Positions 8,609 through 57,367 of a stretch of DNA of 64,000 nucleotides are shown here, one piece after another; positions within the stretch are counted from its first letter, which is position 1; each line of letters starts with the position of its first letter. A model generated the notes under the pieces. The model was not told the DNA's origin, searched no databases, and was given only the letters and a program-made list of their open reading frames with translations. Origin of the DNA: Apostichopus japonicus (Eukaryota; Echinodermata; Holothuroidea; Aspidochirotida; Stichopodidae); assembly GCF_037975245.1 (NCBI RefSeq), contig NC_092576.1, positions 30,172,611-30,236,610 of the forward strand, read 5' to 3'. The translations under genes and the position numbers were made by a program.

Positions 8609-8648
8609 AGGTTGTACAACATCGTGAAGTTCTGCCTAATCAGCAGGT

Positions 8649-12490: not shown

Positions 12491-12639
12491 CAAATGTGGA
12501 AATATCTGCTGAATAAATAAGTACAAACTAGTGTGTTACAAATATACTGTACATATATAATGCGCGACTAAAAGCGTCAGCCCTGGAGTTATCCTTCCCT
12601 CATCTGTACAAAAGCTTGTTACTGTACGCTGACAACATC

Positions 12640-17274: not shown

Positions 17275-17344
17275 CGTTAATTGAAGATTAATTAAGGATA
17301 TTTGCAGATGAGAAGAGTGTCCACGACAAATTCCACAGTTGAAC

Positions 17345-18710: not shown

Positions 18711-18935
18711 GCAGGTTTAGTTATGGGCCGTTGCTATGAATAGATTGAAGACTTTGCGTTGGTACAACCGAAGAGATGTATGGAACTCCCTGGTAAAACT
18801 GCCATATAGACTGTACAGAAATAAAGCATGATGTTGTATTTAATAGGCCTATTGGTCAATGACGTTCGTAGTGTTTAAATATTCATATTATGGGCGAGGT
18901 TTCTTGGGTTCTAACGGAAATATCTTTCAGAAAAC

Positions 18936-19832: not shown

Positions 19833-22800
19833 CTATCTTACATAGTTACAATAAAACGCTCTTCTCTTTCGAGGAGGAGACCTTTGTAAACTGGATTGTC
19901 GCCATTCAAGTTCGTTATGAAGCTTCTTACGAGGAGACAAGGCTCTGAACTGCTTAAAAAAGCTCACAAAGTGTTTTTTACTTTCTTCAAATGTTAACTG
20001 TTTATGCTGGCACTTTTCCCTCATTAATTTCCATACATAGTAGAGGCCTGGATTTCCTTTTCCTCTCTTTTTATCATTTTTCATTATTAACTTTCTCTTG
20101 GCCTTCTGCTTGAGGAAACTTATCATTTTCTTCTTCCCAAAGTGTACATCCTCTAATGAGATATTTTTGTTAACTTTTGACTGCAATGTATCAAAAATAA
20201 GTATATAGGCTGAAGGTGTAAGCAGTTTACCACTTTGTATGCAGTCATTTACATACTGGAAGTCAAGAATAGGGAAAGATGATCTGATTGCCTTTGGAAT
20301 ACATCCTGGGACCTTGCTCTTAGATGTTAAACTTTTGTTTGCCAGCACTGTGTACTGTTTCGTAGATCTTTTAAAACCTGATGGAAGACTTGCTTCAACA
20401 CAACCCCCATTTTCCTCGAGAAGCTTAGCCATTTCTGCATGCTTATACGACTTGCCATTCAGTTTAGGAATAGATCCACATAGGATGAAAGTATGATCAG
20501 CAAACATTTTCCCCTCTGTATTACTGTTCACCTGACTCCCACAGCATTTAGCTCGCTTTAATAACAACCTTTTATAGTTACGTTGTATAATATAAGCTGC
20601 CTTGTGCTGCTTAATGTATGTTTTAAATGCACATGCAGCTTTCTCACTCTCCACACTACCATTCCCCTCCAAAATTTCATAACTGAGTCTCTTCCACATA
20701 TTACAAAATATTGACAATATTGGATCAACAGAATTTGATCCACCATGTCTTGTAGTGTGTTGAAAATAGTATGTATTGTGAACATAATTAGTATGCTCAC
20801 CACCTTCAGACTGAAATCTACCCACAGAAAATGGAAGGTGCTTCATAAAATAACCACCGTAATCAATAAATTTTATCATATAAGGTGTAAGACTTTTTGC
20901 AGTGTACTTTGCAACAAATAAGTGGTAGAAACATTCAGCATTACAGTTATACTCCTCAATATCTCTTTCCCTGTAACCCCAACTGTAATCTATTGGATCT
21001 GAGGATCCTTCTTCACAACCATGGATAAGGTCTGGAGAATTATCCTGTTTTATGATTCGAATCATTTCATAGAAATGATTCCACATTTTTTTGATCAACT
21101 CAAATTCACTGTACTGTTGCTGAAGATTCAAATCATTTACAAGTTTTAGTGGTATTTTCAATTGAATGATACTTTGTGAACAAACATCATTAAGAACATG
21201 TGGAAACTCTTCTAATTTGCCAGGTGGTGCAGGCGAAATGATTGTCCATGCATGATCCTTGTTCAATTTAATAGGCTGCAGCCTACCTGAACAATCAAAC
21301 GGAATATGAAATCTTCCTTGTCTTACCCCACGCTTAATTATATTCCTTTCTAAATTACCAATCTTTTCTTCCTTATATGCAACTCCATCCCTACCACTTG
21401 CATTAATACAATTACACTCTAGCAAGATATCTGTAATAAGCAGTGTTAAAAACTTTTCAACTACTCTTGCCAGCCCATGGAGGATGCAAAATACAGTGTG
21501 AGATAAGGGGATGGACGGAAGCAGAGAAGTCGGATGACTACGATCAATTTTAGGAACAAGCCCTGTTCTTCTTCCACTTGAACTATCAACTTCCCCCATC
21601 TGATCTTTCGGACACTTACTATAGATGTTCCAGCCAGTGTATGAAGTCGGGGAAAGTTCCCTTTTGCCATCTAATATAGCCTCTAAAAACATCTCATCAC
21701 CAGTCAAGAAGAAGAAATCACCATCCTTTGTCTTAGTACTGACAAACTTGTCTAACCACATTGCAGGTTTTCCAATGTTTTCTTCTAAGTTATTTCTAGA
21801 GTCACTCTCATAGAAAATAGTCAGAGGAAATATTTCTTTTGGACTTTGATATGAGAAATTATGTAATGCCAGTTCATTGTTTAGAAGGCTTAAAGAAAGA
21901 AACGCACTTTGTCTCCCACCAAATTCTCTACCATCTCCATACACCCTCCAATATTTGTCACCTAAAACCCAATAATACTTAAAGGAAAGAACTTCTATCA
22001 GCCTTTGTGGCATAATTTTCCAACCAGTTGCAGTTCGGGAAGGTTGAAGGATAATTTTGAACTCTTTCCAGTACTCTTTTTTACGAAGTTGTTCCTTTCT
22101 ATAACTGGGTAGCTTGCCAGGAAGCATCTTTCGCAATTTATCGATTAAACGCCTTCCACTATAATTCTCTTCCAGATGAATGACATCATCTGAAGTCAAA
22201 CGAGCCTCATTTTTTATTTCATGAAGGAAGTTCTTGAAATATTTCTTAGAGGAGTTCACCTTAGACAGAACATATAATATGTCACTTTTGCTAAGATGAC
22301 CAGTAAATCTTCTGAGGTGCCTCTTCTTGTTAGTTATAACATATGATAGGCTTTTCAGCATTTTGACTTTATTCCGATTAAAGACATGTTTGTGACAGTA
22401 CTTCAACAATGCCTGAAATTTTTTCGTCCTACCTCTGATATTTCCATTAAAATTTATCTCTGGATACTCTAATTTTTTCTTGCATGTTTTCCTTGGACTG
22501 CTACATAAGGATTGCACACTGTCAGACTGCTTTTCAGATTGAACTTTTTGATACATCTGGGTCTTAAGCATACTACCAATTTCTTTCATAAGACAATCAC
22601 AGTCTACATTCCACCTTCCTTCCCTCTTTTCTTTAGTGAGAATTAGTAACGCATCAAAGTTAATGTGAGTCCTTACTCTTCCTTTCATAAGGAAACATGC
22701 AAGTGGGTCAGACAACTCAGCTTTTAATCTTATATCAATGAAGCTGTATCCTTCCTTTTTAACATGCTTAGACATACCAAGAACATTAAATATATCTTTA

Positions 22801-22881
22801 CAGTTCAAATATACCTTATGTTCCTGAATTACGTACTGAACTTTCTGAGAAGCGATTGAGTGGATGTTTGTATATTATCAG
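19833..22881 (-). CDS. Exon 7: RNase H-fold transposase-like region, IQ motif, BRCT
   Basis: This ~1,000-residue uninterrupted frame is open upstream of its apparent start (a TTG at 22808) to a stop near 22883, so it is a continuation and not an independent gene. In order: a Lys/Arg-rich part; YGDGREFGGRQ, LTGDEMFLEAILDG and CILHGLARVVEK, the type of spaced Asp/His boxes seen in RNase H-fold transposases; GGEHTNYVHNTYYFQHTTRH near residue 690; an IQ-like AAYIIQRNYKRLLLKRAK near 740; and a BRCT-like block (TFILCGSIPKLNGKSYKHAE ... FPILDFQYVNDCIQSGKLL) near 770-870. The C-terminus is very basic. No disabling mutation was seen inside. The DDE assignment is a hypothesis. Confidence 0.6.
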
Positions 22882-25800
22882 AATTTCCCTTTGATAAGAC
22901 AGTTTCACTGGTATTCTTTGGAGTGAAAGAACCTTTGTTAGTTTTCTTACTCATCGTAGGTGTTCCACAACCTTGCTGTACAGCAGCTTTATGAATAACA
23001 CTACTACATCTACTATTTGTCACATAACATTTTGTCTTAGGAGTTTTTGTTTTAGGTGAGGACATTTTTGGATTCACAGGAGCTCCATGACCATTATCAA
23101 TGCAACTATCATTTGCATTATTATCCTCTGTAAATTGACTTTCATCTATTAGAACCTCAAACTGGTTTTCAAAACGAAGAGATTTACTGAAGGAGCTTTT
23201 TGACAACTTTTTCCCTTTCCTTTTGGGTGTGACTGTTACCCAGTTACTGTCTGGAAAATGCGCTTTAGGACTGGTGTTTGTGCAACCATTTAACTCTGTA
23301 TGAGCATTATCAGTGAGACTGTCAGAGGGGTTGTTGTCACAAACACTTCTAGTTTGCTCATTGTTAATAGTCAGGTCTACTGTGGGGAATACTTGATTTC
23401 TACAGTCTTTAATTTTGGATATTTCAGCCATATCAATGGGGATATATGTCTGTACAGTGTCACATTTTCTGTACACAAGAATGTGAATCCCTTTGTTTTG
23501 GATAGATGTAGTGTAGCTGTCTCCAAACTGTAAATTAGAATTACTAACTGCTCCACCAAAGCAATTATACAGAATCGGTTTATCATGCAAACCATCTAAA
23601 TGAGCAAACATATTGTTGTGCTTCACCACTGTTGAAAAATGGTTTGGTTCAACCAGAACCGCTGCAGTCAAGTAATAACCACACTTAAATACATTGACAT
23701 ATTCATTAATGTGCAGAGGAGGGTTTTGATAGTTTTTAGAGTTATGAATTCCCAACTCAAGCACTAACACATTTGGCAGAGCTATATCTCCACTCAAAAC
23801 AGTACTCTTCTTTGTGCAACAAACAGGTATCTTAGAATTAATGTAAACGCCAACTTGTTTTTCTATAACTTGGTCAATTAAGCCATTACACTTTGTGATG
23901 GCAGTTTGTGTCAAAGCCAAATTGTTTGCAGATATAAAACTGCTTTTTGTAGTGCAGCATGATGAACATTGGGAAACACAGTTACATGTGATGCTGAATT
24001 CACTTCCTCCGTCATCACACATTTTCTGCAAACCAACTAACAATTCAGCGTCCCCCCTTCCTTTTGGAGCAAAGGCCAGTGGTTTGTCTTGAGTGAGAAA
24101 GTCCCACACAGGTTCACGCCAAGAACAGTTTGGCTTCCCTAACTTATCTCTCTGTTGAGACAGGCGATCTAACAACCTAATTAATGGGCCCCTGTGGGGT
24201 AGCTGATAGTCTCTACAAAACTTAAAAATTCCAAAATAATAGATCTCGATTAATGAATCAATAGCACATGAAGCCCCATGAAAATTGTGGTTTGGGCATC
24301 GTAAACCGTTTTGAAAATGAAAAATGTTTTCCGAGAAATACATACTAAATGTATACAGCGAACATGGAACACACAATAGGAAATAAAATTCAAGCATCTT
24401 GTACAAAACTTTGACCAGGAAATTGTTAAAAATTAAAAATTGTTAAAAAAATTAAAACCAAGCAGTGGTCATTACTGCAACCCACATAAATACTTTTTTA
24501 ACTCCTCCCTGTAGGTTACCTGCCCAATGGTGCAATGGCAAATTCCAATCTTCACAGTTGCCCAAAGCTGGAAGTCCTTTACATAAATTAATATGGACGA
24601 CACAAACTGTGCTCTTCCCTCCTCAAAGTGAACATCCCACTGAAATTTCCCAAAAATGCCATCCAATTTGCCCAAAGTTCCCTGCAGCATGGAAAACTCT
24701 TTTCTTCTTTTCTTGACCATATCAAAAAGTTCCAGGTCTACATCCAGGTCACAGACACCCCATGAAAATCTTTTGCTTGCAGTTCTCCTTTCTAAAGCCT
24801 GCTTAATTTTTTTAATTCCATGGTAACAAAGAATTTCTTTTCTTTGTTGGCACCTAGCAAAATAACTCTCCTTTGTACTTAGCAGTGCATCTTTTACTGC
24901 CTTTTCTCTTATATCATTAACAAATTTTTTGGTCTTTTTTGAGAGAATAGCCTTACTCCTATGAACTGCTTCTGCATTAGCAGATACCTTTACGCCGTCC
25001 ATCACCTCTCCATTCTTTATAAAACTACCTTGAAAAGTTTTCTTTCCATCAGGTTCAACTGATATTTGCTCCACAGCCAAAGACAAGTCGACATCCTTCA
25101 AATGGGCTATATCTCCACATGATAACAGACACTGACTAGCATCCATGGCTGCAAATATGAAACTGCTGCCTGCAAAAATGGAAAAGATGTGTCAAAGTGG
25201 CTGTCTTCATTCAGACTATTTAACACAAGATTGTCTGCCTCTCCATTTCATTCAAATCAATTCTATTATTTAATCAATCCCATCCCTAATAAGGCTATAC
25301 GGGTTAAACGGTTAACTGAACAATCAGTTAGGTGGACTTATTGTGTCGTCAAATTAAATGTTTTTTTACAGCCATTTCACTCTAGCTGTTGCTTCTCTGG
25401 CTTTATTAAATTTCCACTCAATGTTTTGCTATATTGAAATTTCCACCAAAGCTATGAATGTTCTCCATTACATCACACAGGGTTGACCAAATAGTCCGGC
25501 AGATTAATTAGGTTGTCTGCTCCTTAACAATGGGCACAATGTATGGCTTGTACTGATTAGAACAGCATACCCCACTATAAATAAGCTGGCCTAACGTACT
25601 GTACTGCATAATGTTCAGTAGAGTGGAATCTGGTCATGAAACACAAGTCTATCGTGGTCAGGAGAGCAAGCAGAAAGCCAATGGGCTTAGTGTGATTCCT
25701 TGCCATTGTTGATTAAATAGATCAACAAGGTTCTTACACTGACTGTGGACCTACCTACCAAATATGTTAACTTAACACGTTAACAAGTTTATTTTTAGCA

Positions 25801-39329: not shown

Positions 39330-39333
39330 TTAA

Positions 39334-39548
39334 AGACCAACTATGGAGACTTTTCGATGAACATAAAATCCCACCATTTTTCATGTATGTAATCCTTAAC
39401 TGACTCCAATTACATTGCTGTAATTAACTTTACCAATTTCGAACGTTAAATACGTGAAAAATGGGACGAAAAGTCAGCTTCTATTTCAGACATTCCTGAA
39501 ACATTCCTTAAACATCAGGTCACCATGTGACGTCAACGTTTGTATACC
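39334..39548 (+). repeat. Left inverted end of the TTAA element
   Basis: Matches 56931-57162 in reverse orientation at its outer ~17 bp and at its inner ~33 bp; the middle is diverged. TTAA at 39330-39333 precedes it. It lies 85 bp upstream of the transposase ATG and may include its promoter. Confidence 0.65.
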
Positions 39549-39632
39549 TCACTCACAACTATACTTTTAGTGTGTAAAGTCGTATACTTGAGCTGCCAAA
39601 AACATCAAGGATATTACTCCTTTTTCCTCAAA

Positions 39633-42600
39633 ATGCCACAATTCTGTGTTGTTGGAGGTTGCAGTTATACCTCAGCCAACAAAAAGATCAGCTTTTTTAG
39701 GTTTCCGAGTGGAAGAACAGACGTAAAACGCCGTAGACTTTGGATAAATTTTGTGAGATCAACGCGTAAAGATTTTTCAGCACCCTGAGTATCTCATGCC
39801 GAACACGTTAAAGTATGCTCAGTGCATTTCAAAGAGAGCGATTGGGATCCTCAATATTTGCTACGCAAGAAGTTGGCCAAGGCTGGCGTAATATTAAAAC
39901 CAAAATTTAAAGTAGGAGCAGTCCCATCTTTGAAGCCGCAAAGAGAGTCACCCTATAAGAAGAGACGTCTCCTGTCCATCAGACGACAACGTTCCAAGGT
40001 ATGTATAAATCTCAGCCTTCCAACCTAGGCTAGCTTAGGGTCTACATTGATTATGCTAAAGCGATGTGTAATAGCCTACATGCAGTTGCATGATGCAACA
40101 AATTTTCTACGAAAGCGCTAGCGGAGACTGAAACTGAAGTTACGGTACACGTAAATCGCGAAACCTGTCAAAAATTTTGATTACTAACCAAGCAATCCTG
40201 GGCATTGTACCTATGTTGTGCTATCACTGAAAGCTTCAATACCGTTGCAGCCAATTCGTACAACTTTCTATTCAAATTTGGTTCTGATGAGGCGTGATGA
40301 AGAAACATTAGGCCTAATATGACATAGCCTAAGCCTAGCTAACACTAATACTAATAGCTAGTATAACGTGAAGGCGCTCATACAGTGATGTAGGATAAAC
40401 CAACTGTGGTATCATGGCTATAGCCTACTGCAAGCTAAGCCTTACAACAGTGTTCCTCAACCATACTTAGGCCTAGGTATATATGTGGTTTCTCTCGTGG
40501 AGTGCAGTTCTTGCTGTAAGGTGCTTCAGGAAGGTATATGTGAGGGCTGTATTTTCAATCTTTGTGGTGGTGAACTTTTATTCAAAGCTTTAGTGCGAAC
40601 AATGTTTTTTAATAAGAAAAACATAGCTTAGACTACATTACCACGAGAAGATCCTACTGGGGTTTCCGACATGATCATCTGCTTGAGTTTTCACTCCGTT
40701 TGAAAAATATGCTGGTGAGAACCTTGGGTATTCATCTTATTTTTCTTGAAAACCCAGTTTCTACACATGAATTAATTATTGCATATTGCTACCTGTATTG
40801 GCTTTAGCTCTTCATTCTGTCACATTCCCTTTGAATGACTCCCTTTTTTTGGTGCAACCAATATGGTTATGGGGTCAATCTACTTCCTTTCTTTTGTCTC
40901 TTCAGGTGGTATCAAGATTAATTCAAAATCTTTCCAAAGGATGTTGGAAAAGGACTAGCTACTCTGCAAAATGATGCAGATACCTTGCAAGGTTTTGCTG
41001 ACCAAGTTAGGAGTGAAATGCCCCAAGTGAATGCTATAAGCGTGGCCCCATCAGGTTACACAACTGTGCAGTCTGAAAATGACGGGAAGACCCACAGAAG
41101 TCACATTCAAGGCGGTGCGAAAGCGTCAGTGCTCGAAAGCAGTTACAGTATGCAGTAAAAATTGGGGTATTACCAAAGGTAAGAATGTCTTGTAGGTTCT
41201 GAAGGCAGGTTATATACTATACTATCATAGAATGTGCTTTTTCATGTGTATTTCTGGTATAACATACATAATGTCATAACTGCGTAGTCATTAAAGAATG
41301 TTTGAGTGTGGGGGTGGGGTGGGTAACATATTTCATGTTTTCTATTCAGGCCTAGAAATTTTTTATAACAGTGGATTTCTTTCATACAAGTTGTCCTACA
41401 TGACAGAGGGGGGTTCCAATTAACAGGTAAAGCAAAATATGTAACAGATCATCAGTAGGTAGTATTAATACTTGTGGTTGACATATAACAAGGTTTGAAA
41501 ATGAGAAAGATTTTTGCTCTGGCTCTGTGTGGACCTATTCATTACCACTTTTTGCAATTTCTCTCGGGATATCAGTTATTGAAACTTTGTTTTGTGGGAC
41601 TTTATCATAGACAAGAAGATTTGATCCCAGGAATGGCCTGAGGAGGATAAAAAGGTGGTTAGAATAGCTCTCATAGTAAGCACCAGCTCCAACACTTTTA
41701 GGAATTATCTGCTCTCTAGCTTGTGCATACTGTATCTATATGGTAACAATTAAATATTCTTTATCATCACAACATTTTACCATGCAAGTAGAACATTAGA
41801 AAATGCCAAGCTAGTGGTGCATACATGTATTTACATTGTGTGACTACCTTAGTTAACTTCACTGTTAACTTCATACAGGAATGCAGACACCTAAATGGCA
41901 CTCTGTGGAGACAAAGGAAGTGGCAACACAGTGGGAAGATCTTCATGAAGAGCCTCGAGTAAGATATGACCCTCCTTCTCCTGATGTCATTGATAGCTCT
42001 TCCAGTACAGATTTTTGCAAAAAGCTAAACAGCAAAATAATAGTGGATCCGGAATACACACCGGACAGTGATTCATTGCCCCTCAAAGACCCACATCTAC
42101 AGTACTTGGAATCTAATGTGTAAGTATTATATCATATTTCCTTTCATTGTACAATCATAGTTGAAGTCAATTGCTTATGCTCATTATTTTGTACTAGGTT
42201 TTAGAGAGTATCCCTACTTCTCAATTGAGCAATGACAGTCCCCATTCCTAAAAAAGTTCTGTAAAAGGTTTCTTCTATAGCTTTTTACTGTATCTGTAAG
42301 AAAATTCATCTAGTTTTTGTTCAATCCAATCGTATACACTTGTAAAATATGCAGATTGACAACCCAACTGTTGCCCATGGGCAATGTGTGTTGAGTGAGA
42401 ATCTGAGAATGAATTTCAAACATGATGTATTGAATGAAAGCAATTTTGAAGACCTGTGAAATTATACAAATTTTGCAAACATGTACTATAACCCTTGTCA
42501 TGAAGAAAATTCCATACAGCAAAATCATTCATGAAAAACTCTGATGTATTAACAAATGCGTTTTTATTCATTTTAAAATTGCATCTTTTTTTTCCTTTAT

Positions 42601-45600
42601 TTTCTCAGAGAGAGCATCGATGAGCCAACACCTCCTGACATTGAGGCAAAATACATGGTATTTGAAAGCTGCCTTTTGGATTTGTTTAGGGTATGTCCTG
42701 TTTGCCATGGAAAATCTCCACAGATCAGTCACATAAAGGGAACCATGGTGGTCATCAAGCAGCTTTACCAGGAGCCAGCACCCTGTGGCCTGGTAAGGAA
42801 GTGGTTTAGCCAACCATTCATTGGTAACCTTCCTGCCGGCAATATCCTCCTTTCCAGTGCAATTCTCTTCAATGGGGCATCTCCAAAGAAGGTTCTGAAG
42901 GTCCTTTCAGCCATGAATATGGAAAGTATTGCATATTCATCTTTCATGGAACACCAAAGGCTGTATTTCCAACCAACTGTCGTAAACATTTGGAGTAAAA
43001 TGCAGCAATCACTGATAGACCAGCTCAAAGATACCAACCAGCAGTTGGTCATTGGAGGCGATGCCAGGAACGATAGTCCGGGGCACACAGCCAAGTATGG
43101 CTCCTACTCATTCCTCGAGCAGAACATTAATAAAGTCATTCATGTTGAGTTGGTTCAGGTAAGAGATTCAAAATGATTTTGTATTGCCCTTTTTTTCCCT
43201 TTTGCTTTATTGTGGTGTCAACAGGTGTCAAATGGTTAAACATTGGTAACATGATATCTCAAAAGAAGGAAGCTTGGAACAATCACATGTTTAGTATGCT
43301 GATTCAACACAGGAAGCCTATCAGTGGAACTGTTAGGTTAGCAGCTGTCATTTAGACTATACTATCTTCACAACTCAATGCTTTTTGGCTGTATTACTGA
43401 GATCAAGTATGTTGTACAACCCTATGGTACAGTTGTCAAACTCAAAAAAAGTAAGGTATATTAACATCATCTAAACCAAAATACATGCATTCAAGTTATT
43501 GTGAGTTGACCAATGACTACCTTTGAAGAAAGGGGGGGGGTATTCAATGCTTCATTATTATAATTTTTTTTGGGGGGGGGGCATATTTTGGGGCCACTGG
43601 CTTCAACCTTTCCAACTAATTTGAAAATACAATGTGCAAAGTACTGTTCTAAGTTAATAGTTACGTTTCTCATCATCGAATGATTTTTGTTTTTCGTTAT
43701 CAAATTAGGTCCAGTTGTATTCTTCTTTATAAAAATACCTTAACATCTCCAATGTTTTTTTTTTTGGGTGGGGGGGGGCTGGTGGGGTGGTTAAACTGGC
43801 TATGAAAATATGTCACATCTTCCTTTCTTGTTTTCTTAGAAAAATTAAGTTGGCAACAGCTATCGAATGCAGCTGGAAGGTTTGAAGAGGGGAACGTCAT
43901 GAATATCTCGTGTGGGCCTCAACCTTGGGACCATAATTACAGACCGGCACAGTCAAGTAACTAAATGGATTAGAGAAGAGTTGAGCCAGAAATCTGGAGT
44001 GGTGCATTACTTTCATGTTTGGCATATATCCAAAGGTACCTTCAGCACTCAATTAGCATAGCAAAGTGTCGTTTATTTGATTATTCTGTCTGATATCTGC
44101 TGACATGATAAATATATTCTATGAAGTAATATCACACTTCAGACATCCATTTTATGCCATTCAGTGTTCCCTTGGCCATCTATTTCTAACTTTCAGCTGA
44201 TTTGTTTTTAATTCCTGTAATGGCGTATGTAAGATAACCATGATAACCACATCTTCTCCTGCATAATTTGTAGGAATAAAAAAGAAACAAAGGGCTGCCG
44301 GTGCAAAGAGCGACTGTGGGTTGATAAATCACTGGACATGGAGTATAATCAACCACGTGTATTGGTCTGCCTCATCAACCCCTTATGGAAACGGTGATGT
44401 CATGGCTGCCAAGTTCGCATCCATCTTGAACCACATCATGAGCATTCACATCCACAACAACGACCATTTTCCAGCCTGTGAGCATCCACTTGTACCTGAT
44501 GCAGAGCGACAGAAAGCTTGGGTTCCAATTGGTAAGCGACCTGTTTCACCTCGCGATGTAATTTAGCCGTTTATTGACAGTCTTATTAAAGCTGTAATAA
44601 ACTTTCATTGCAAGTTAACATTTAGATACCGAGGAAGTATTTTTAACAGTTTTGTAGAGTATGGAAGCATGCATTTCATAATCAGTCAGTTAATTTTCTA
44701 CATATTGGTTGTTCTCTTCCATCAATGAAATCAACTCAACATTGTAATAAGTACCGTTAATGAGATCATTTTCGAAAGACTTTGGTGAGTACATTATAAG
44801 TACCTGCTTAGACACATAAAGTGAATTTCGTTTGTTTCTGTTTATCTCAGATTCAAAAGCTGCAGAGGAGCTACTAAGGATTCTGGATTCCCCTTACCTA
44901 ACTCGAACCATGAAAATGATGTCACCATTTCATCAAACCCTCCGACGTTGAAACATACCATTCGATCATCAACATATGGCATATAGCTACCAAAGCATGC
45001 TTGTCCGGTGAGGAATTTGACATATTTTTATTCCTTAAAAGTAAAGTAGAGTGTAGAGGTAGAATAGGGTCTTACAAACGGAGTACAATTCACAGCACTG
45101 GTCCTAAACACCTCCAATAGTACCACTCATGTACTATTACAATACTACTTTATGAGAATTCTTGTGTGTTCATGAGGCATAAGCTGTAATCTTTTTTCTC
45201 CTTCCCATACAGATTGTATCTTGCTGCTATGCACTATAATGAAAATGCTGGACGATCCCAGAGAAAGAAGAAAGATGGGACCCTACGGTGGTCGATCAGC
45301 TTCCCAAGGGGGAAGGACGGAGACTATGTGCTGCACAAGCTCTTGGAGGAGCCTACTTTTGGTATGAACTATGACATGTTTGCTATAACTTTTAACTGAA
45401 ATCAGTACTGAGCTCTATAAAATTGTACTGCCATGTTATGGTGAAGGAGGGGAGGGTGGTTGGCTGGGGTTGGAGAGGGGAAAGTTTTATCCTCTTTTTC
45501 AGCTCATGTGGAATAAAAGTAATACCAAAGCAGGCAGATTTGCCTTTGATCATCATATACCATAGAAGGGGTGGTTTCCTTTCTTTGTTATTCAAAAATG

Positions 45601-45864
45601 AAGGAAATTTTTATGAGGACTCGTGAAAGTGACCAGATGACTAGTAAAATATGTAAGGTATTGCAAACTTTATCTCACTTTATTTCAGAATATGTCCATG
45701 AGCTAATGGAAGAGGCAGTTCAGTTGGTGCAGAGAGGTGGAAAAACTCTAAGGCAGACTATACCAATCCTGAGCAATGTTCCACCTCCACTTGCTGCTTC
45801 CTTAGAAAACACCCCGAGTTGCAAGTTGCTGTTGGAAGGGAAACTTCCAGATTTGCCCATATAA
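39633..45864 (+). pseudogene. THAP-domain, Kolobok-like transposase gene (9 exons, inactivated)
   Basis: Exons: 39633-39998, 40906-41178, 41879-42119, 42609-43158, 43840-44035, 44274-44531, 44851-45007, 45213-45361, 45689-45864, with canonical splice ends; phases agree from exon 3 on. Exon 1 is a THAP domain (MPQFCVVGGCSY ... VCSVHFKESDW). Exon 4 carries LVIGGDARNDSPGHTAKYGS, exon 5 GLNLGTIITDRHSQVTKWI and YFHVWHISK, exon 6 NHVYWSASSTPYGNGDV, exon 8 AAMHYNENAGRSQ: the catalytic-domain words of a THAP-associated transposase family I equate with Kolobok. Damage: TGA at 39786 in the THAP domain, a frame change in exon 2, a TAA at 43846 and a shift in exon 5, and shifts in exon 7. Splice sites survive, so inactivation is fairly recent. 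It converges on the minus-strand ballast-domain gene. Confidence 0.8.
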
Positions 45865-45986
45865 AGTAAAATAGAGTAAACTAAATGAAAGAGGATGCGA
45901 AATCATTGGTTTCTATTTATAATTACCCCAACTTTTTTATGGAACAGTCGCATCAGAAGTTTTAACTTGAAAATAAAAGTCAAATG

Positions 45987-47911
45987 TCACTGCTCATCAA
46001 CAATTCCTGGTTGGAATCCTGTCATTCTTTGTCTCCTGGGAGGTGGAAAAGTTTGTCTTATTCTGTCAACCACACAAGAGGGTAAAGGAACCGTGTTATT
46101 TCGACCAAGTATACCCCAATTCCATCGGACCACCTATCGGTAAGCTGTGTATCTGTAGCGCCTTTCCAAAGGAAGAAATAACGAAAACGAAAAATACTAA
46201 TGTACAACTGTTTTAGTTAAAGCTTTTTATAACCCTCTACAATATGTTTCTGCCTACATGGTATCTCAGAGCAAAACTTTCTTAATGAGCAAGTGCATAT
46301 CTTGGATCAACATACATTGAGATGGATAGGGGAGAGAATGGGTGGGTCCAGAGATACTTTTTGCCTCGATATGGGTTGACTGAGGTGCTTTGAGAGGATT
46401 CGGCCATGGGGGAGGAGTGGGAAGGGGTGAGTTGACCAGGTGAATGATGATGAAAACAACACACAATGAAAACCATGTATAAGGCAAAAGTAAACATGGT
46501 TTGTCTTTGCAATTATATTAAGCTTTAAGCCAAGTTTGGTATGCAAATTACAGTAAGAATGCCTCCATACCTACTTCATGATCGTTACTCACTGATGACA
46601 GTCCTCAAAGTACTGAAATGTGTGATTGTTATGCTGTGATAATATTTTGTACTTACTCGTGATCTCTATGGGGTACCTGTCTCTGTTCCCTTCTGCTGTA
46701 GCCAATGTATGCTACATCCAGAACCACAATGCACAAAGCTACTGACTCAAAAGCTTCGTGTTGAGTGATGCAAGTCTCAGGTGTACCTGCCTGCAGCATT
46801 GTATCCTGCATACATGGTATTTCCTGACAACAAACGCTCTCAGTGACTGTTGGCATTAATGCACAGGCCCCACAGCGACACCTACATTATGAAGTAAAAA
46901 AGACCCAAAGCTTGGAAGTATGTTTAGAAATGTTTTATGATGCCAAAAAAGGCAAACCACTGCATTCAAGCAGATACAGTAGGAATTCAAGCAGCTGCAG
47001 ACTGGATTACTACTTTTGAATTTGTAAACAATAGATGAATACCAATACCTTGCTGAGTTAATTGAGAAGTGTTTTAATCAAGTGTTTGTATAATAACTTT
47101 GTGGATATATAGCAGAGGTTACACCTATGGAGTAAGTTGCTTCAGTGCCGTAACTATTCACAACATAGAAAATGAATGGCTTCCATACAGATATTATGTT
47201 AACTACATCTTCAGTATTTTCTTTTGGAATCTACGTTAATAAGACCTTACCCAACCAACCAATGGGTACACTTTGTTCTTGCAAAAAAAAAAAGGTGTGA
47301 TATCATTAGCTTCAAATTCATGTCAACGTCTTATTAAATGCTTGTTTAAACTATGGCACATAAGAATCAAATTATCTGGTATTGCAACAGAAGTGGGAGC
47401 GTAAAGACCCATTCATATTTGTGGTGTAAAGCAATCGACAATTGAAGAATTAATATTTGTTAAATAAAACCGACCACAAAAGCGAAAAACAAGAATTTTG
47501 GTAAGCAGTACCCTGTGGCCTAAGAATCCAGTTTCCCTCTATGGTTTATCGGGAAAAATAAATAAATAAATAAAACATGAAATGTGACTTGAAAGTATTT
47601 AGTACCTACCAGTCGAGTCTTTGAAGCCTTTCCATGTTTTCATTTCTTTCCATTGGCTGCCGTGGTTGCTGTTCCCCTTCGGGGAGTAACGGTTCGAATC
47701 TGTATGGGGCAGCGCCAACCAAATCACGGGCGAATTCTTCTTCGTCCGTGTCAGGCAATTGCTCTTCTTCTGATGAAGTGCTTGATGAATCAGTATCATC
47801 CTCGTAAGGGGACTCCACGCACTCACCACCGATCTCGCCAATAGCTATTTCTTCGTCCACTTCAAAATCATTATCAAAATTTTCCCCTAACGTGGCGGTA
47901 GCGAATGCCAT
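45987..47911 (-). pseudogene. P2X7 C-terminal 'ballast'-like domain gene (3 exons)
   Basis: Exons 47911-47610, 46881-46657 and 46152-45987 join in phase 2 at both introns with GT-AG ends. Exon 1 (ATG at 47911) is acidic and Ser-rich, with a GAAPYRFEPLLPE word near its end. Exon 2 begins WCRCGACALMPTVTESVCC across the junction, then ETCITQHEAFE and LDVAYIGYS. Exon 3 reads YTAYR, a TAG, then VVRWNWGILGRN and LPSCVVDRIRQTFPPP. The Cys pattern and the R-Y-x-A-Y-R ... R-x-x-F-P ending are those of the cytoplasmic zinc-binding 'ballast' domain of the P2X7 receptor, which also occurs alone in invertebrate proteins. There is no P2X channel part. The TAG in exon 3 (probably from CAG) would truncate the domain. 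Confidence 0.8.
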
Positions 47912-48637
47912 GTTTAAGTTGATGTTCGATGTAACTTGTCAAACCATTGTAATGTTTATGTGTTGGGTCAGGTTGTGGTAGGAAACCGACAACTTTTAGA
48001 GAACGAACACGCGTCTTATACTGTAGGCTAACTCTATCGAAGAATTTATTCCCCGACAATCACGTGTACAATAACAATGAACTATTTAGTGGGTTACTCC
48101 TCGAAAGGCGTACAAGCAGCACAATAGTTTCGCATATAACAACAACAAAAGACCTTACGTTCAATTTGCTGCTGCATCCGTTTTAATAAACTATGAAGTT
48201 TATTCGCCATAGCTGTTTACTCTGACATTGTTATGCTGACATTGTTATTCAAATAATGCTAAACTGATGAACTTGTAAATGAAGTCTTCAAAAGTTTTCT
48301 GTGAATAGGATCGATCGATTAAAGGCGATATCGCTCGTAGACTTTTTTTTGAGGGCGCTGGCATTATCGAGGTTTCAGCGAGGTTTAATGGGACCCCGAA
48401 AACTCACGTGACCTCGGTGGCAAATTTAGATCAGTGAATAGCACAGGCAAGCGTATGCGTAACAAGCCCGTACCCATGCACACATAATGTTATAGCACAG
48501 CATTTCAGATTATTGTACTGTTTACCGCAAAGGATTTTCGTACGCGATAGTTTGTTGTTTGTGTGCCTTTTGAGTAAAGAATACTGTACGATTTTCGTAC
48601 AAATACATTCGATTAGACTAGAGTATAGTGACAATCA

Positions 48638-48916
48638 TGGAAAAGGGATCAGGGCAAGGAGAATCGGGCGAAAGAAAACGACCTTATCCTGGAACGAGCG
48701 TATAGGTTCAAATGGAGGAAAGCCATTGTTGCATGGACCTGACAAAAACAGCAGTGCAAAGGAACAACAGCGACGAAGAGATGCCACGAAGATCTATCTT
48801 GTACGTTCCTACGTAAACTGGCAAATGGAGAAAGAACTCTACAAACATGTCCACGATTTGACTTCTGTTAGCAACGCAGATTTCGCAGAACATTTGCTTC
48901 AGGATCACACAAAAAG
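48638..48916 (+). pseudogene. First exon of a third gene in the TTAA element
   Basis: The ATG at 48638 gives MEKGSGQGESGERKRPYPGT and then a stop. In another frame the exon continues as DATKIYLVRSYVNWQMEKEL and SNADFAEHLLQDHTKR to an AAAAAG|GTAATG donor. A single frameshift near 48700 therefore separates two coding-like halves. The gene diverges from the ballast-domain gene, 727 bp apart, which could be a shared promoter region. The product is not identified; the last part resembles small helical modules found in other repeat-encoded proteins. Confidence 0.4.
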
Positions 48917-48929
48917 GTAATGATTTGCT

Positions 48930-51750
48930 AAGCTAGGCTAAAACTGTATAGGGTAATACTAGAGTTAACTGTAACAGGATAAATCGGCCATGATTTTAGA
49001 TGTAACTCGTAAGAAAGGTGGTGCAAAATGTGTGTTCGGGTATTAAAACAGCTCTTACTTATATAGCCATTTCCAGCGAAAATCAAAGATACCGCCTTTA
49101 ACAACTTTTTTTTTTTAAACTATCATTACGTGGACCGCAGTTTTAATACTTTATTAGATACTCAATCCTTCATAACGCGGGCGTCCCTTTGCCCTTTTTA
49201 TCCGCCGACCGCCTCATAATTCTTTAATAATTCCTAATTATAAACCCCCAAGCCGCCTCTATGTTATATTTTAATCATCCTGCCTGAATTTGGAATCCTA
49301 AAATTGCAGAAAAATATAGTGTACAGGTAAGTGAAAAAAAGGTGTTTTCCGCATAAGAATTTTTTCAGCGGAAAGTAATCAGCGGAAAGTAACGTATGCG
49401 GAAAACAACTGAAACCATACTAGTACATAGTAGTACTACAGGGTATTGTCCTAGGTAACTGTCAGTATTGCGAAGTACAGAAAACTGCAAAGTTCGGACA
49501 CCCCTAAGAAATACACGATTTCACCATGATAACCTACAAGCGAAAGCCAATATCACTAAAAACTAGGAAGCTACAGTTATTTCCTCTCCAAAATGACCCG
49601 TGCGCAAGTATGTACGTACATATCTGTCAATAAAATGAAGATAGTTTTTGGGGTATTTTAAGGCTTAGGTGTTCGAACTTCGCAGTGTCTATGCTATTGT
49701 ATTTGTAACATACATGATTTGATGAGCCTAGGCTTTGTAACTAGGCCTATCATTCATTATTTTTCCAATGGACCTAGCGTATGCTAATCTTATCATACTT
49801 ATCCTAGCACAAAATAGCAGTAAGTTGTATTATTGAGTCATCATCATCACTGTTTGTGAATGCTTGTCATGAGGATACTGTATAGGCCGTTTCTTACGAC
49901 TAGTCGTAACAATTATAAACTATTCTTACGACAAAGGCAAATTCAAGTGCAGTAAATAAAGCAACTGCGCATGTAGTAGAGGTAACCCTAAACATAACCC
50001 TAAACCTCAATCCTAACCCTAACCGGAAGTTATTGTTACTCATCGTCGTAAAATTAGTACTCCTAATCATAAAAATAGCAACTGCCCATGGGTAGTCGGA
50101 AATTATTCTTACGACTAGTTGTAAGAATAGCCACTTTGTACTGTATACAGTTAAAAATTAAAATATCCTTCCTAAAGAAGACAGGGACTGGGGGTCTTTA
50201 GTTTCACTCCTCATATTTATGCCATGGAAAGCTGGGCCTTCTCATCACCAAAAAGCAAACTGTTTTTGCCTCAACAAATTGATGGAAATATATTTTCTAA
50301 CCACTAGGCCTAGGTCATCTGTTCATCCCCACCCCCTCCAGGTTTTAAATTGTTATCAGCTGTCCTTGTTTGAAGAATAATTCTTGTGAATGAGCATTTG
50401 AAAGAAAAGCCTCACCTATGCCCAGTCATAATTAACTGGGCATATAACATAGGACTAAGGCCTATAGTATTAGTAATAAGTATCTGAATTTAGTGTTCAT
50501 AGTAACTGTATTCCCTAATTTTGTAATATACACCAGTGAGGAAGGCCTACTGTGCTGTACAAGTACAACCACATGGACCTGCAATTTTTCCTATAAAAAT
50601 AATGCATCTACATAAATAATTTAGAATCACTCCTAACTGATTCACATGTTTTCACACCGCTGTGTATGCAACTAGACCTTAGGTTTTTCTAAGGTCAGCC
50701 ACAGCCAGCATATATGCAATCAAGTTTTAATGGTTCATTTGGGCAACAGGGTGTTATACTGTTATCTACTGACTGTCTGTCCAATATTCCAGCAATCATG
50801 TGTACATGTCTGTGTTTGGGATTTTTGAAGGAACCCAACTGCTATGCAAGAAATTAGGTAAATTAGCCTCACAAATTGAGGGACCATAGTACATATAGCT
50901 ATACCTATATAAACCTTTATATAGCCATGCCTGGGGGTAAGAAAGTACCAGTTTTTTTTTGTGGAGGCCTGATGCTTATACTTTATGATGCTGTGCTAAG
51001 TTATCATATTTTTAATATATAGTCAGTATATACTATGCTTGTTTTTGTTCAGCTTCTTGTCAATGATCTGATGTTTAGTGTTCAAAAATTATAATATCTA
51101 TTAAATTTGGTGGCCGAAACTATCTCTTGTGGAGAGTAATCTAGCGTTAAATTAATGGTAGTCTGAAATCAAGCTATTCATGTAAACAGGAATTTTTCAC
51201 AATGGTGGGCTTATGTCATGGTGTAAGCTAGCATCTCAATTCTCACTCATGAAACCAACTGCTCACATAAACAGGAAGTTTAAACAGTAGGTAAATAATG
51301 AGTGTACATCAAACTCTGATCAAAAGACTGGACATCTTTTAGCGATATGAAACCAATCAGTTCAGTAAGACAGGAAGTTTACATAGTAAATTTTACATTG
51401 ACATGTGAGCTCAAGTTGTTGGGCAAGCAGTTGGGCAACACAAAATTATCCTTACAATTCTTGAAAGGTACCGCGGTTTATGGATATGTTGAAGAAGAGT
51501 ATGAAAGAATATCTCATCCTTATCTGGGTTTCAATCAATGTGGGTTAACAATATGTTATTATTGAAATATGCCTAAGTGTTTGTTTGTTACTTTTCTCTT
51601 TCATATTTTTTCTTGGGTAGGTATGATAAAAACATGTATGTTTGTAATGATTTGGTCATTACCAGATTCATTATGCATACAATTAAGCTTGGGGTGTACA
51701 GTAAAATTACTATTTCAGTTATATGATTTACGGACAATTTTGTTGGTTTC
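48930..51750. other. Intron-like stretch without exons seen
   Basis: No supported frame. It contains the MITE at 49885-50138 and no other recognised structure. Confidence 0.35.
49885..50138. mobile_element. MITE with palindromic ends and telomere-like core
   Basis: The left part ggccgtttcttacgactagt and the reverse-complemented right part (ggctattcttacaactagtc) match. Both are flanked by the 9-bp direct repeat TACTGTATA (49876-49884 and 50139-50147). Inside is a degenerate array of taaccctaa words (49982-50024). It encodes nothing. A 9-bp target duplication would suit Mutator- or Merlin-like elements. Confidence 0.65.
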
Positions 51751-51759
51751 ATTGTATAG

Positions 51760-51858
51760 GTTTCAAATGCATCTTTTCCGGAAAGATGCTGAAAGTCAAA
51801 CAGGCATTCTCAGCAGCTGTCACCACAGAAGGATCAGTTGACACTCAGAAAGGAGAAG
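51760..51858 (+). CDS. Candidate exon in the TTAA element
   Basis: Acceptor TTGTATAG and donor GGAGAAG|GTAAAT. One frame reads KMLKVKQAFSAAVTTEGSV and ends in phase 1, joining the exon at 52723. The upstream phase does not match the exon ending at 48916, so at least one exon is missing or shifted. Confidence 0.3.
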
Positions 51859-52722
51859 GTAAATTTATATGTTTATCCTTGCATGAATTACAGACTGGAA
51901 GAGCAGTGCTAATCTTATCTGATCTGATGTGATCAGAAAAATAATACAATTTCATTCTCATTAAATTCCAAAAGAAAAGAAAAAAATGGTAGCATATTGC
52001 TCATCCACTAAAAAGCATACATGTGTATGAAAATTTATAAAAGTAAGTGGGCCTGATATTATCAGGATCTTCTTTAGAGGCAAACTGACTAGTAACAGTA
52101 AATTCAAGAGACACAATAGAGCCTGGAACAGAGAGGACATGGTGAACACAAAGAAAGAAGTTAATGGTGTATTGAACAAAAGGAGTCAGTGAAAGCAGAG
52201 GTATTTAGATAAACTGTGGAGTACAAAGCGAGGATTAAGTAAGGAGAGAGGGCGAATAAACTATAGCAGAATACAGAGATGGAGCAGGATAAAGTTAGTC
52301 ATGTCCTTCCTGTATATTGAGCCCATTCAGTTGAATGGTGCTAGGGCATTCCGTCCGCTCTCTCTATCTCTGCTGTGGTGTACTATGTCTGAGATGGTTA
52401 GTCTACGAATTCAGTTACCTGTTGGGACATGTCTTTAATGGTATGATTGGGCAGCTGAAAGTGTTCCCCTACTGGAGTCTCCATTTTCATGGTATTGACT
52501 TGTGACTAGAACTGCTTCTTGAGGGTGGTCTTGGTTTCACCAACATACTTGTAACTTCAATGTCCTCTAAACTCAATGACACCATTTAAATTGAAATATC
52601 AGTTTCCAGTGCTGCATAAGTGTGATAAGTTGTAAACAAAAGGTATATTTTTAGTCACAGCCATAGAAGCTATAGCAGGATACTTGCAATCTAGTAACTC
52701 TTGTTTTATGTAATCTCTACAG

Positions 52723-52925
52723 ATACTCCTGATCCAGTTACTTCAACACCTCTCAAGAAGCCATCTGCCAATGTTCTGTCCAATGTCACCAGTAGGATTA
52801 GATATGGAGCAGCATGGGAGAAAAACCTCAGACTATACGAATACACATTGCCACATTTACATGATCCTGAACAAAAGAGATCATACATATGGCAGGGGCA
52901 AGCACTTTTCCCAGACTTTTGTTGA
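52723..52925 (+). CDS. Candidate exon following 51760-51858
   Basis: Acceptor TCTCTACAG. The frame continues from the previous exon as DTPDPVTSTPLKKPSANVLS, a Pro/Ser/Thr-rich linker, and runs to a TGA at 52923. An internal donor may end the real exon earlier. No domain was recognised. Confidence 0.3.
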
Positions 52926-52929
52926 CAGG

Positions 52930-55060
52930 TTGTGCGACATTCCCAAACGTTGGATTAGCAGCTAATGATACATCTGCATCACCAGATTGAGATAAATTGC
53001 TTTCGTCCATTTTGTTCGATAGTAGCTATGACTGTGAATCAGGAGCTTGGCCACCCTCTAAGTCAAGGTGGGCAAGGTTGGGGAAATTCAATCAAGGAGT
53101 AACACTCAGAGAATGGCCAGCTTTATATTATTGTATATAGGCCTACACGCACAGCGTGTATAAATATCTGTATCGGTTTATTTATACTGGTGTTCATTTC
53201 CGTTGCCAGGAGGGGATATGATTTGAACGTGGGGGAGGGTGTGGGGGGTGGGGAGGGGGTCCCATTTGAAGTGTCCAAACGATGCTAATCTTTACATCTA
53301 TCTTCTTGAATGACATGTACCCCTATCGACACGATCAATCAGTCCTGTCTCTCACCTCCTCTCATGCACTGGTGTATTTATTTCCTGGCAAGATAACAGT
53401 TAGGCATAGTAAGGGTCAGAGGTCATCACAACTTAAAGAGTTGTGCGAGTCCCTGTGGTCTCTTACATCCTGGTAGCAGTAGAGAGAAGAAGCCTAATAG
53501 ATCACAAACCATAATCATCTTCTGTTGTGTCTTATTTTCCAGCATCCTTGAAACATTATATCCTTCCCCTTTGATTTGTTGATGTCATAAAGCTGTATTT
53601 ATGTGGTGCATTATTTAATTCCAGTATTTAGATTGTATATTCTTCTTGTGTATTTGACAGTATCCCAGTGATCTCCATTTTTCTGCTCTTGGTTTTTTTC
53701 TCTCTGTACTTTCATATCATATCTATCTCTACCCCTAGCCTCCATCTCCACATTTTCTTTACTTTCTTCCTCCATCCCTTCATCTGTCTTTCACGCTTTC
53801 TTTCTTGACCTCTTTCCTCCCCTCTGTTTACCCTGTATGTTTTAGTTTGCCGACTCCCCCCCCCCCCCCCGCATCTCACCCCCAAAAAAGTTCACAAGGT
53901 TGACAAGTCTCCCCGTGCTAGTCCCAAGCTATACACCCTTGTTGTGGTGACCGTTCAATATACTTGCGGATCAAATGGAAAGCCCCACCCCCACCCCTTA
54001 TTCCCAGTGTAATGAATCGGCAAATGGAAGATTATTCGGAGTTGTTCGTGATGGTTCAATGATCTTATAGTCAGGCATAGGCCTATATGGTTCTCTTTGT
54101 CCTTCATTGCCGTCGAAGTTTGAAATGAATTAATCGTGCTAGGAACTTCCGGGCAATGTTTAATTTTCTGTGGCAAGAAAAAAAGCTTCCCCCCAGTCTC
54201 TCCTGGTTGACTATATAGAGCCCGTACGCCTATATGGTCACACAATAGTATATATAAGTATGATCCATGCAGACATCTAGTATATATTTTTTTAAATTCA
54301 ATCCACTTTCAGTTAAAGTTTCGAGTTGTAATTCGAGTCAGTCGTGATGAGGTGCCCCATGGTGGAGCTGGGTAACCCACCCCAACCCCGTTGCCGACTT
54401 TTTGGCATTTCGTTGGGAGCCGTTCGGAACAAGAACAGGATAGTCAATTCTGGGAGTACAGTACGCTGGAAAGCAATACACTGACGTGATTTAGAAAAAA
54501 AAGTTTTTTGCTTTGACGGCCGATGCTCAGCGAGACACTTTTCAATGGAAATAACTATTAGTTTATTGTTCATGTACTTATTCCCTTTTTGCCAATCCTT
54601 TCTAAAGAGGGTGGAGCCGCCCCTTATGGCAACGTATTTTCCTTCCCTTTTCCGTTCAAGTTTCGTTATTTTTTAATTCGGGTCAAAGGGGTGCAAGGAC
54701 AGGGTTTACGTGCACCGGTTAGGAGGACGGGGTGCAGCTAGGGCAAGTGCTCTGTGATCGCCTAAAGGGCCCGTTGCCAGGAGTCCAAATATAATTAAAT
54801 ATACATATTTATCTGTATATGGTATATGACATAAAATGCTTTGTCTTTCCCTCCTGATATATAACTAAAATTTATATATAAAATTATATGTATAATTAAT
54901 ACCTAAATTGGCTGAAATACCAATTGTTCACACTTGTAATCACTTCAGTCAATTTTTTCACTCATTCGCGTTTGTCTTTTTGTGACACCAGTCAGCGTGA
55001 ATCAGACATAAAGTTCATAACGATTAGTTTCTTGAGCTGTTTCTTGACTTCGACTAAAAG
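52930..55060. other. Spacer with pyrimidine-rich tract
   Basis: No supported gene. 53690-53870 is strongly C/T biased on the plus strand and ends in a C run at 53857-53870. Confidence 0.35.
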
Positions 55061-55068
55061 AGTAAAAG

Positions 55069-55273
55069 CAGGGAACTGCTGAGTAGCAGCTCCCTGGTCA
55101 AACTATTACGCCTGATGCAAAGCTCGACCGTAACCTATACTGTACAGCCCATTAGTTGTGAAAAGTTCTGAACGTAAAACAAAGCACTGAGTTTTGTATC
55201 ACACAACACACACGAAAACGCGGCGTAATACCGCATACTACTGACCAGGGAGTTGTTCCATAACAACTCCCTG
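55069..55273. mobile_element. Short fold-back element with hairpin ends
   Basis: The left end cagggaactgctgagtagca, ctccctggtca and the reverse-complemented right end cagggagttgttatggaaca, ctccctggtca are alike and are each self-complementary. An inner attacgcc word is also shared in inverse. The element is ~205 bp and non-coding; no target duplication was identified. Confidence 0.5.
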
Positions 55274-55294
55274 TACTGCCACAGACAAGAAACT

Positions 55295-55528
55295 ATGCAG
55301 GAATTTGGCCAAGGCCACCGTTCAAGTAACCGAACCCGTTTATTGCTTACTAGCCGTAAATACGGGATTGCTGAGAAATTACGAGACAACAGCGACGATC
55401 CGATAGAGGGTAGTATTGATATTATTTTTGAATCGGGTGGTGTGAAGGACAGAATTTACGAGGAAATTACGAGCGATCCCACCTTTAATACCGATTTACC
55501 ACAACGTCTTTTGAAACTGATGTATTAG
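55295..55528 (+). CDS. Candidate terminal exon or small ORF
   Basis: A clean frame from ATG at 55295 (open from 55253) includes SSNRTRLLLTSRKYGIAEKL, SIDIIFESGGVKDRIYEEI and ends LPQRLLKLMY. The balanced composition and late stop look protein-coding. By position it could be the last exon of the third gene in the TTAA element. The product is not recognised. Confidence 0.4.
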   Translation: MQEFGQGHRSSNRTRLLLTSRKYGIAEKLRDNSDDPIEGSIDIIFESGGVKDRIYEEITSDPTFNTDLPQRLLKLMY

Positions 55529-55539
55529 TCACATTAGCT

Positions 55540-56930
55540 ACTTCATCTGACAATCCACTGCATGTACTTTGTCACCTGTAACATTTCTAACGGACAAACA
55601 AACAGTCGCAGCATCTGCCCCCTTCCCCGGACTCCGGCCGAGTTTGATTGTTAGTAATTCTTACTCTCTTATATATATTTTTTATTACGAATCAGCATTC
55701 TGGATCTGGAGACCGTGGAAGGGATACATCAACATAGCACAACCCTATTACCTTTTGTCGGTGTGTATATTGTACTTACTATTTTCGTGCAACATAACAT
55801 AAACTGATTTCCTAATAAGCCTCACAAAACTGCAGGATAAGTATTGATAGACCTGCAGTCTTAGCCGGAACTATGATGCAATAGACCTACATTACATAAA
55901 TAACTTTAAATGGATTAATTTTTCCCTTCAATTCGAATGGACAGTATGGGGCCTAAATACTCGCAATAAAAGTGTACGTAGCTCCCTATTTTTAATTATC
56001 GTTTTGCATTTGTAACCATTCGACATGCACAAAAAGCCTATGGGTACTCATACATGACCCTGCCTTTGTGTACGCCGCGAATGTCTCTTTCTGCGTAGCT
56101 AATGTGAAATTCACCCTTTCAAGTCTCATCGTAAACACGCCCGGACGTCCTTACATGTAACATTATATCACGCAATTGACAGTAATATATTTACTGTAAG
56201 AGATGACCGTATATATATACCGTGCCAAGTGTGTAGCATTGTTAGTACATGTACGGTAGTTAGTTACAACTCTCGCCGGCGTTGGCTCACAGCATGTGTA
56301 AATAGCCATGTTAGGATTTTTCTATTTCATTTGTTGTATTCCAGTATCGTGAGTTCGTGATACATGTGTAATATTGTCCGTTCTGTTTATTCCGACATCT
56401 GCATGTTCCAAGGAGTTGAATAAAAACGGTAGTATGTAGCGATCGGACGTTTTATTTCGTTAGTGACTGTCTCGTGATTGTGGGATGTTAGTACTGGTCA
56501 AGGCCTGTTTCAACTAGACCTAACTCTATGGAATTACACAGACTCACGGTAGTTTTTCGCCCAGGATTGAACAAGAAACGTGGATTAGGATATTCACTGC
56601 TAAATTTGTTAATTGACAGGATACTTTTTCTGTGTTTGTATACTTTTTGATATTAAAACGAGTAAGTACTATGTAAGTATATTGTACCGTACGGACCTAT
56701 TGACGCTACGCTATGTAAAAGATGCCTCCATTTGAGTGGAAATTTTGGTCATAAAATAAGCAATTTAACTAAAATTTCTGCGTATAATTGTCTTAAAACT
56801 TGTTGTTAACCTTCATGTGTTCTTGTTTTAAGCTAACAGCTTTTCAAACGCTCGAAATTGGAAGTCAAAAACAGTACAATTGTTCGCTATCTGTGTACAA
56901 ACAGTGCCTATATGAACGTTCGATTTTCGC
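55540..56930. other. Gene-free stretch inside the right part of the TTAA element
   Basis: AT-rich; no supported frame or repeat structure. Confidence 0.35.
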
Positions 56931-57162
56931 GGTATACAAACTTTGACGTCACACGGTGACCAGAGGCTCCTTTGGGTCAATCTCTGTTTTCAGACATTCC
57001 AGAGCTTTAGTCACGTGACTACCCAAAATGTCCATTTTCGTGGTCGTTTTGATGGGTTATAGTAGGTTTTCGAAGATTATTTTTCACACATGTTGATTAT
57101 GGGTATGTAAACTAAATTAATTGAAAATCTCAACCAAAAAAAATTGCCTCTATATTTGGTCT
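56931..57162 (-). repeat. Right inverted end of the TTAA element
   Basis: Inverted counterpart of 39334-39548, followed by TTAA at 57163-57166. Confidence 0.65.
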
Positions 57163-57367
57163 TTAAAGTGTGTATAACTGCCTTTTTAAATACATTTTGC
57201 TGGAATTTGGGTTAATCTCAAAGTTATTTTCTTCGGAAATAGTACAACATTGTCAGTTCAACTAAGAAGACAACCTTATCTTTCTCTTGTTTCAGCCCAA
57301 CTTCAGCTATGACATAGTTTCTGGGATATGGGGATCAAAGAAGTACAGGGAAATGAATGCAAATTAC

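Follow-up and report, generated by a model that had tools for sequence, protein, structure and literature searches.

A probable Kol0-type Kolobok transposon with a P2X7 ballast-like gene, interrupted by a second TTAA-flanked element, in the sea cucumber Apostichopus japonicus

Genes and ends of the element

We analyzed a 64,000-nucleotide stretch of the Apostichopus japonicus genome (positions 30172611-30236610 of NC_092576.1, here C16, in the 671.6-Mb assembly GCF_037975245.1). This whole stretch is called the window below, and positions are given in its own numbering unless another contig is named. Its interval 39330-57166 carries a transposase gene with a THAP domain and, convergent with it, a three-exon gene, KolX, whose product resembles the ballast domain of the P2X7 receptor. 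We consider it very probable (roughly 0.93) that the interval is a decayed Kol0-type Kolobok transposon of about 10.7 kb, here called the outer element, into which a 7.2-kb TTAA element has been inserted between KolX and the right end.

The ends of the outer element are as follows: TTAA stands on both sides (39330-39333 and 57163-57166, the two target-site duplication copies), and directly inside lie the left terminal inverted repeat (39334-39348, plus strand, AGACCAACTATGGAG) and its right counterpart (57148-57162, minus strand, AGACCAAATATAGAG). A repeat finder pairs 39330-39348 with 57148-57166 as a 19-nt inverted repeat of 89% identity, TTAA included on both sides, and reports a second, subterminal pair of 34 nt and 91% identity that lies at a similar depth from each end (39515-39548, plus strand, GGTCACC..TGTGACGTCAA; and 56931-56964, minus strand). 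Taken alone, the terminal 11-mer AGACCAAMTAT is not significant in the window (6 places with at most one mismatch, 3.56 expected). The inner 19-mer GGTCACCRTGTGACGTCAA, on the other hand, occurs at two places in the window with up to three mismatches, where 0.01 are expected, and the best 34-mer shared by the two 300-bp ends agrees at 31 of 34 positions, whereas random pairing of 300-bp pieces of the window gave no more than 24 in 198 trials. In the whole assembly the inner block is present at 667 places (338 + 329) with two or fewer mismatches, against 13 for a reversed control. The subterminal repeats are possible binding sites for the transposase. The termini read AG...CT and so follow the 5'-RR and YY-3' rule of the Kolobok superfamily.

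The THAP exon of the transposase gene (39633-39998, plus strand) contains an in-frame TGA at 39786-39788; with this stop read as X it matches Pfam PF05485 at 4.7e-14, and a THAP domain in the transposase is a feature of the Kolobok superfamily. The remaining transposase exons span 41889-45862 on the same strand (limits approximate), and sequence comparison places the exon pieces at about 41889-42118, 42610-43159, 43840-44035, 44274-44532, 44851-44990, 45213-45361 and 45690-45862, with a possible extra exon near 40906-41180. The THAP exon would be spliced to these DDE exons. In a second copy of the element on C7 (below) the motifs GGDARND, TDRHS, DVWH and VETYHS follow one another in order across the exons, which gives the DDD/E arrangement with C/DxxH between the second D and the E that is typical of Kolobok, the catalytic roles being assigned by pattern rather than by structure. 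The window transposase has stops and one frame break, and its DxxH motif reads HVWH instead of DVWH. A further THAP-like stretch lies in the window at 3410-3682 on the minus strand (36% identity to the THAP domain of the element, 1.3e-12).

KolX is encoded on the minus strand by exon 1 (47609-47911, the acidic N-terminal part), exon 2 (46674-46880, the cysteine-rich part) and exon 3 (45990-46169), the last of which has an in-frame TAG at 46134-46136 in the window copy. Exon 1 is open in the window and C7 copies, is present in the predicted protein P0011 discussed next, and has weak matches in two diverged copies on C17 and C8. Exons 2 and 3, with the stop read as X, match Pfam PF20478 (P2RX7_C) at 5.5e-11 and the P2X7 chain 9e3m_A of the PDB at 2.4e-6 over chain residues 476-591. 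It is thus the C-terminal ballast of P2X7 that aligns with these two exons; the channel part of the receptor is absent from the window KolX gene. P0011, from the public A. japonicus gene set, agrees with our model over exons 1 and 2 and at the beginning of exon 3; its sequence is of the window type and its C-terminal end falls exactly at the window's TAG. The truncated KolX of the window copy thus seems to be annotated there as an uncharacterized protein. When KolX of the C7 copy was compared with 172 candidate proteins, five matched at E ≤ 0.001: P0011, a carp protein that has the P2X7 intracellular domain, two proteins called P2X purinoceptor 7-like, one from a sea star and one from a tick, and one unnamed sequence. 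Several ballast matches elsewhere in the genome are encoded by a single open frame of 170-213 amino acids (for example C17:16725219, 205 amino acids) without the intron of the window KolX, and these could belong to other KolX families or to host genes.

The first-pass annotation of this DNA, made from the letters alone, had described the related inverted ends abutting TTAA, the second inverted block inside them, the THAP/Kolobok-like transposase gene and the ballast-domain gene in convergence with it, and all of these are borne out by the measurements above. With interruptions in the reading frames of THAP, KolX and the transposase, the window copy would very probably be unable to move by itself.

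Other copies and the nested insert

Is the interval a single transposon of 17.8 kb? The first-pass annotation proposed a giant TTAA transposon carrying three genes, and the two outer ends, inverted and flanked by TTAA, agree with such a structure. The copy at C7:7446705-7457488 argues otherwise. It is 10,784 bp long, has TTAA on both sides with neighbouring bases that differ from those of the window, and matches the window at 39330-48322 (96.1%) and 55486-57167 (96.4%); window positions 48323-55485 are missing from it. At that place the C7 copy reads GATCGATCGA-ATAA-TACCGAT, a single copy one base off TTAA, where the window has TTAA...TTAA. In the C7 copy, which looks like an intact full copy, the reading frame is open in the THAP exon, in KolX exons 1 to 3 and in those transposase exons that were examined.

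The segment that C7 lacks is found alone at C6:8176111-8184619, between TTAAs, with one block reordered and about 1 kb extra. In the window this nested element occupies 48319-55488 (AGGCGATATCGCTCG...CGAGCGATCCCACCT), and its ends form a 22-nt terminal inverted repeat of 86% identity with AG..CT termini. Its left end, searched as TTAAAGGCGATATCGCTCG, a pattern that starts with TTAA and therefore counts TTAA-flanked left ends only, is present at 128 places in the genome with at most two mismatches, against 3 for the control. On the C7 and C6 copies we reject one giant transposon with three cargo genes as highly improbable; the apparent length of 17.8 kb arises because a second element is inserted inside the outer one. 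No further 17.8-kb copy with the insert at this site came to light, though no search aimed at such copies was made. What stands of the first proposal is a TTAA-flanked Kolobok-type element with a transposase and a ballast gene, at about 10.7 kb rather than the full length, the other 7.2 kb being the nested insert.

Short relatives of the outer element were sampled by cutting eight loci around the inner block. Seven of these are short elements, 1378-1627 bp in length, that pair a AGACCAACTAT end with a AGACCAAATAT end, all with TTAA on both sides and with different flanks; the eighth (L006) has the inner 19-mer only and matches the element no further. The short elements consist of positions 1-471 of the C7 copy joined to about 9642-9737 through 10784, at about 92-98% identity in the main blocks (84.5% in one block of locus L004, and about 81% over a block of 54-58 bp). 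Because they are made of a left stretch and a right stretch of the C7 copy, they are internal-deletion derivatives.

These short copies, with the same ends at seven of the eight loci, are also what could lend colour to the idea that host DNA with a transposase and a ballast gene lies by chance between two separate short elements. The window, however, has a lone left end on one side and a lone right end on the other, facing inward, and the full arrangement is repeated at C7 with different bases beside the TTAA. Chance ends around host DNA are hardly credible and are rejected on the C7 copy. The outer inverted ends are real and belong to one element, and TTAA is found on both sides in the window, in the C7 copy and in all seven short copies that have both ends, as expected of the Kolobok target site. 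The search for further copies with the same ends, which the first-pass annotation had proposed as a check, was thus favourable for the outer element.

Diverged relatives are present as well: the copies on C17 and C8 are 96% alike over about 10.8 kb and retain most of the transposase motifs (C8 has TDCH). The THAP side of the C17 copy reads TTAA-AGATGAACG; the C8 copy has no TTAA at that place.

Ballast genes beside transposases in the genome

The measurements above place KolX and the transposase inside one element, but do ballast genes lie beside such transposases elsewhere more often than by chance? Eight ballast loci outside the window were fetched, most of them from among the strongest matches in the genome, and in six of them (C7, C17, C8, C1, C9 and C16a) the convergent KolX-transposase order recurs, so that KolX stands beside the transposase in diverged copies too. 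Of 491 candidate matches, 150 were scored and gave 139 loci. Leaving out nine of these (the window and the eight fetched loci), we put the other 130 in seeded random order and kept the first 20. A scan of 4 kb from the 3' side of each locus found transposase exons at six of the 20, all in convergent orientation, and in none of 26 control pieces, likewise 4 kb long, drawn from the window, C6 and C7. A one-sided Fisher calculation by hand arithmetic gives about 0.004 for this excess, a value that overstates the evidence since some of the loci resemble each other.

Several observations weigh against our explanation of the interval or narrow its reach. The sampled loci are partly alike (L036 and L038; L035, L043 and L046) and so not fully independent, and the 4-kb scan found no transposase at 14 of the 20. 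Two of the eight fetched loci (C4 and C16b) have no transposase exons in the stretch examined, and the diverged C16a copy has no E at the E position and carries stops. No Pfam transposase model passed for the transposase, the best being Mutator PF20700 at 0.064 and 0.11, under its cut-off. The association of ballast genes with transposases is clear and far from universal, and the expectation that such genes neighbour transposases is upheld for a part of them. The many ballast genes that stand alone could be decayed copies, parts of other elements or host genes.

Open reading frames of at least 95 amino acids beside the 14 loci without a transposase are a mixed set. One beside L032 is glycosidase-like by eye, and L035, L043 and L046 have one nearby frame in common (TAAEADANCTGDIPSSSDTD...), so that ballast genes also recur in a setting other than that beside a transposase.

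The nested element and its orphan gene

The first-pass annotation had counted a third gene among the contents of the interval. Its exons do lie there; they fall inside the nested insert, however, and the gene is not cargo of the outer transposon. This gene (48637-52922, plus strand), which we call the orphan gene, has exon pieces at 48637-48702 and 48702-48917, at about 51761-51857 and at 52722-52922, and comparison with P0001, a related protein, shows that its reading frame is broken in exons 1 and 2 in the window. Pfam gave nothing better than Dsc3_N at 0.15 for the orphan gene, and nothing at 0.01 for P0001. The homologues found carry an Apostichopus name or none (10 of 53 candidates at E ≤ 0.001, and all five candidates at E ≤ 10 with region 36-95 of P0001). 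The largest cluster of orphan-gene relatives, that of P0001, has 48 member sequences.

What kind of element is this? We lean slightly towards the view that another Kolobok family is present here in a gene-carrying form, in which the orphan gene would be a lineage-specific accessory and the transposase would be supplied in trans. TTAA on both sides, the AG..CT ends, the excess of TTAA-flanked left ends over the control, the size of the P0001 cluster and the result that our transposase queries have no match inside the insert at E 0.01 all fit this view. Against it, no autonomous partner was found (a genome-wide search with the orphan gene not having been made), the pattern used for the count included TTAA and so left ends without TTAA uncounted, and the frame of the orphan gene is broken in the window copy. 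There is about an even chance that the nested element represents an undescribed TTAA-flanked Apostichopus family that has a spliced orphan gene (for a 193-amino-acid protein) in place of a transposase. If so, this transposon family would be spreading a gene confined to its host lineage, which could be a passenger mobilised in trans or a hitherto unknown accessory factor of Kolobok.

Relation to known Kolobok transposons

Kojima and Bao (2022, PMC9587614) report that the KolX protein of the Kol0 lineage (type Kolobok-1_XT) has the P2X7 cytoplasmic ballast, that residues 476-595 of human P2X7 are the KolX-like region, and that a P2X4-like gene fused with KolX to give rise to P2X7; in their account earlier work had not noted ballast proteins as part of Kolobok transposons. 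Rump et al. (2020, PMC7016195) describe the capture of the ballast, and a word search of the available text of that paper gave no match for transpos, THAP, mobile or Kolobok.

Kol0 and the outer element have in common the TTAA target, 5'-RR..YY-3' ends, a DDD/E transposase with C/DxxH, and a second protein, KolX, similar to the P2X7 ballast (PMC9587614). The hosts named for Kol0 there are vertebrates, annelids, cnidarians and sponges, whereas the host of the outer element is a sea cucumber. By its KolX and its motifs, rather than by a tree, the outer element is classed as a Kol0-type Kolobok. It also resembles XKol of Xenopus (PMC6004289) in its AG ends, TTAA and THAP + DDE transposase. Nine of the 10 full-length XKol elements tabled there have TTAA on both sides, and their full lengths run from 6.8 to 13.9 kb, so the 10.7 kb of the outer element is ordinary; the available text of that report has no match for the words KolX or P2X7. 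PiggyBac is contrasted with RR..YY ends in PMC9587614, and by these features the AG..CT termini, together with the THAP domain, fit Kolobok.

KolobokP, reported in echinoderms among others, is likewise of the Kolobok superfamily and has a second gene on the opposite strand (PMC9587614). It differs in having long terminal direct repeats (about 450 or 660 bp) and a His-Me nuclease, where the outer element has a ballast gene, and it was rejected on its ends: the longest direct repeat among the 20 largest direct-repeat families of the window is 38 nt, a separate search for the nuclease not having been made.

The outer element would probably have moved by cut-and-paste as follows: the transposase, with its N-terminal THAP DNA-binding domain and D-D-E core, would bind the terminal and subterminal repeats, excise the element and join it into a TTAA site, which would thereby be duplicated. 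The convergently encoded KolX would be an accessory protein bearing the domain later seen as the P2X7 ballast, and our guess is that it might act in transposition by binding DNA or the transposition complex.

Other mobile-element traces in the window

Three further regions of the window, all on the minus strand, have the look of mobile DNA. Retroelement fragments lie at 4951-8635, where the frames are broken and models of reverse transcriptase and RNase H match 7278-8012, and at 12638-18720, non-LTR (lacking long terminal repeats) by eye, where 15473-15844 and 18214-18720 match RVT_1. At 19833-25191 there are three long consecutive open frames of 1013, 537 and 239 amino acids, the first with a sub-threshold BRCT match (1.5e-5), and this could be another large mobile element.

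Implications

The first-pass annotation suggested that the ballast domain may have travelled as transposon cargo, which would give a mobile source for the P2X7 fusion. This agrees with the 2022 report (PMC9587614), and its central inference is therefore not new. "Cargo" is also a poor word for it, because KolX is described there as a regular second gene of the Kol0 lineage and is not a passenger acquired by the window copy. What is possibly new is a Kol0 member in an echinoderm, and also the nested element with its orphan gene.

The full copy, the deletion copies and the recurring gene order give independent support, in an echinoderm, for the published view that the P2X7 ballast is a gene of Kol0 Kolobok transposons. 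The matches to KolX, found by comparing protein sequences, include sea star and tick proteins named P2X purinoceptor 7-like, and our results suggest that some invertebrate predictions of that name may be transposon genes. An expansion of THAP transcription factors has been reported in sea cucumbers (PMC13228809, whose available text has no match for Kolobok), and part of that expansion may share a transposon origin.

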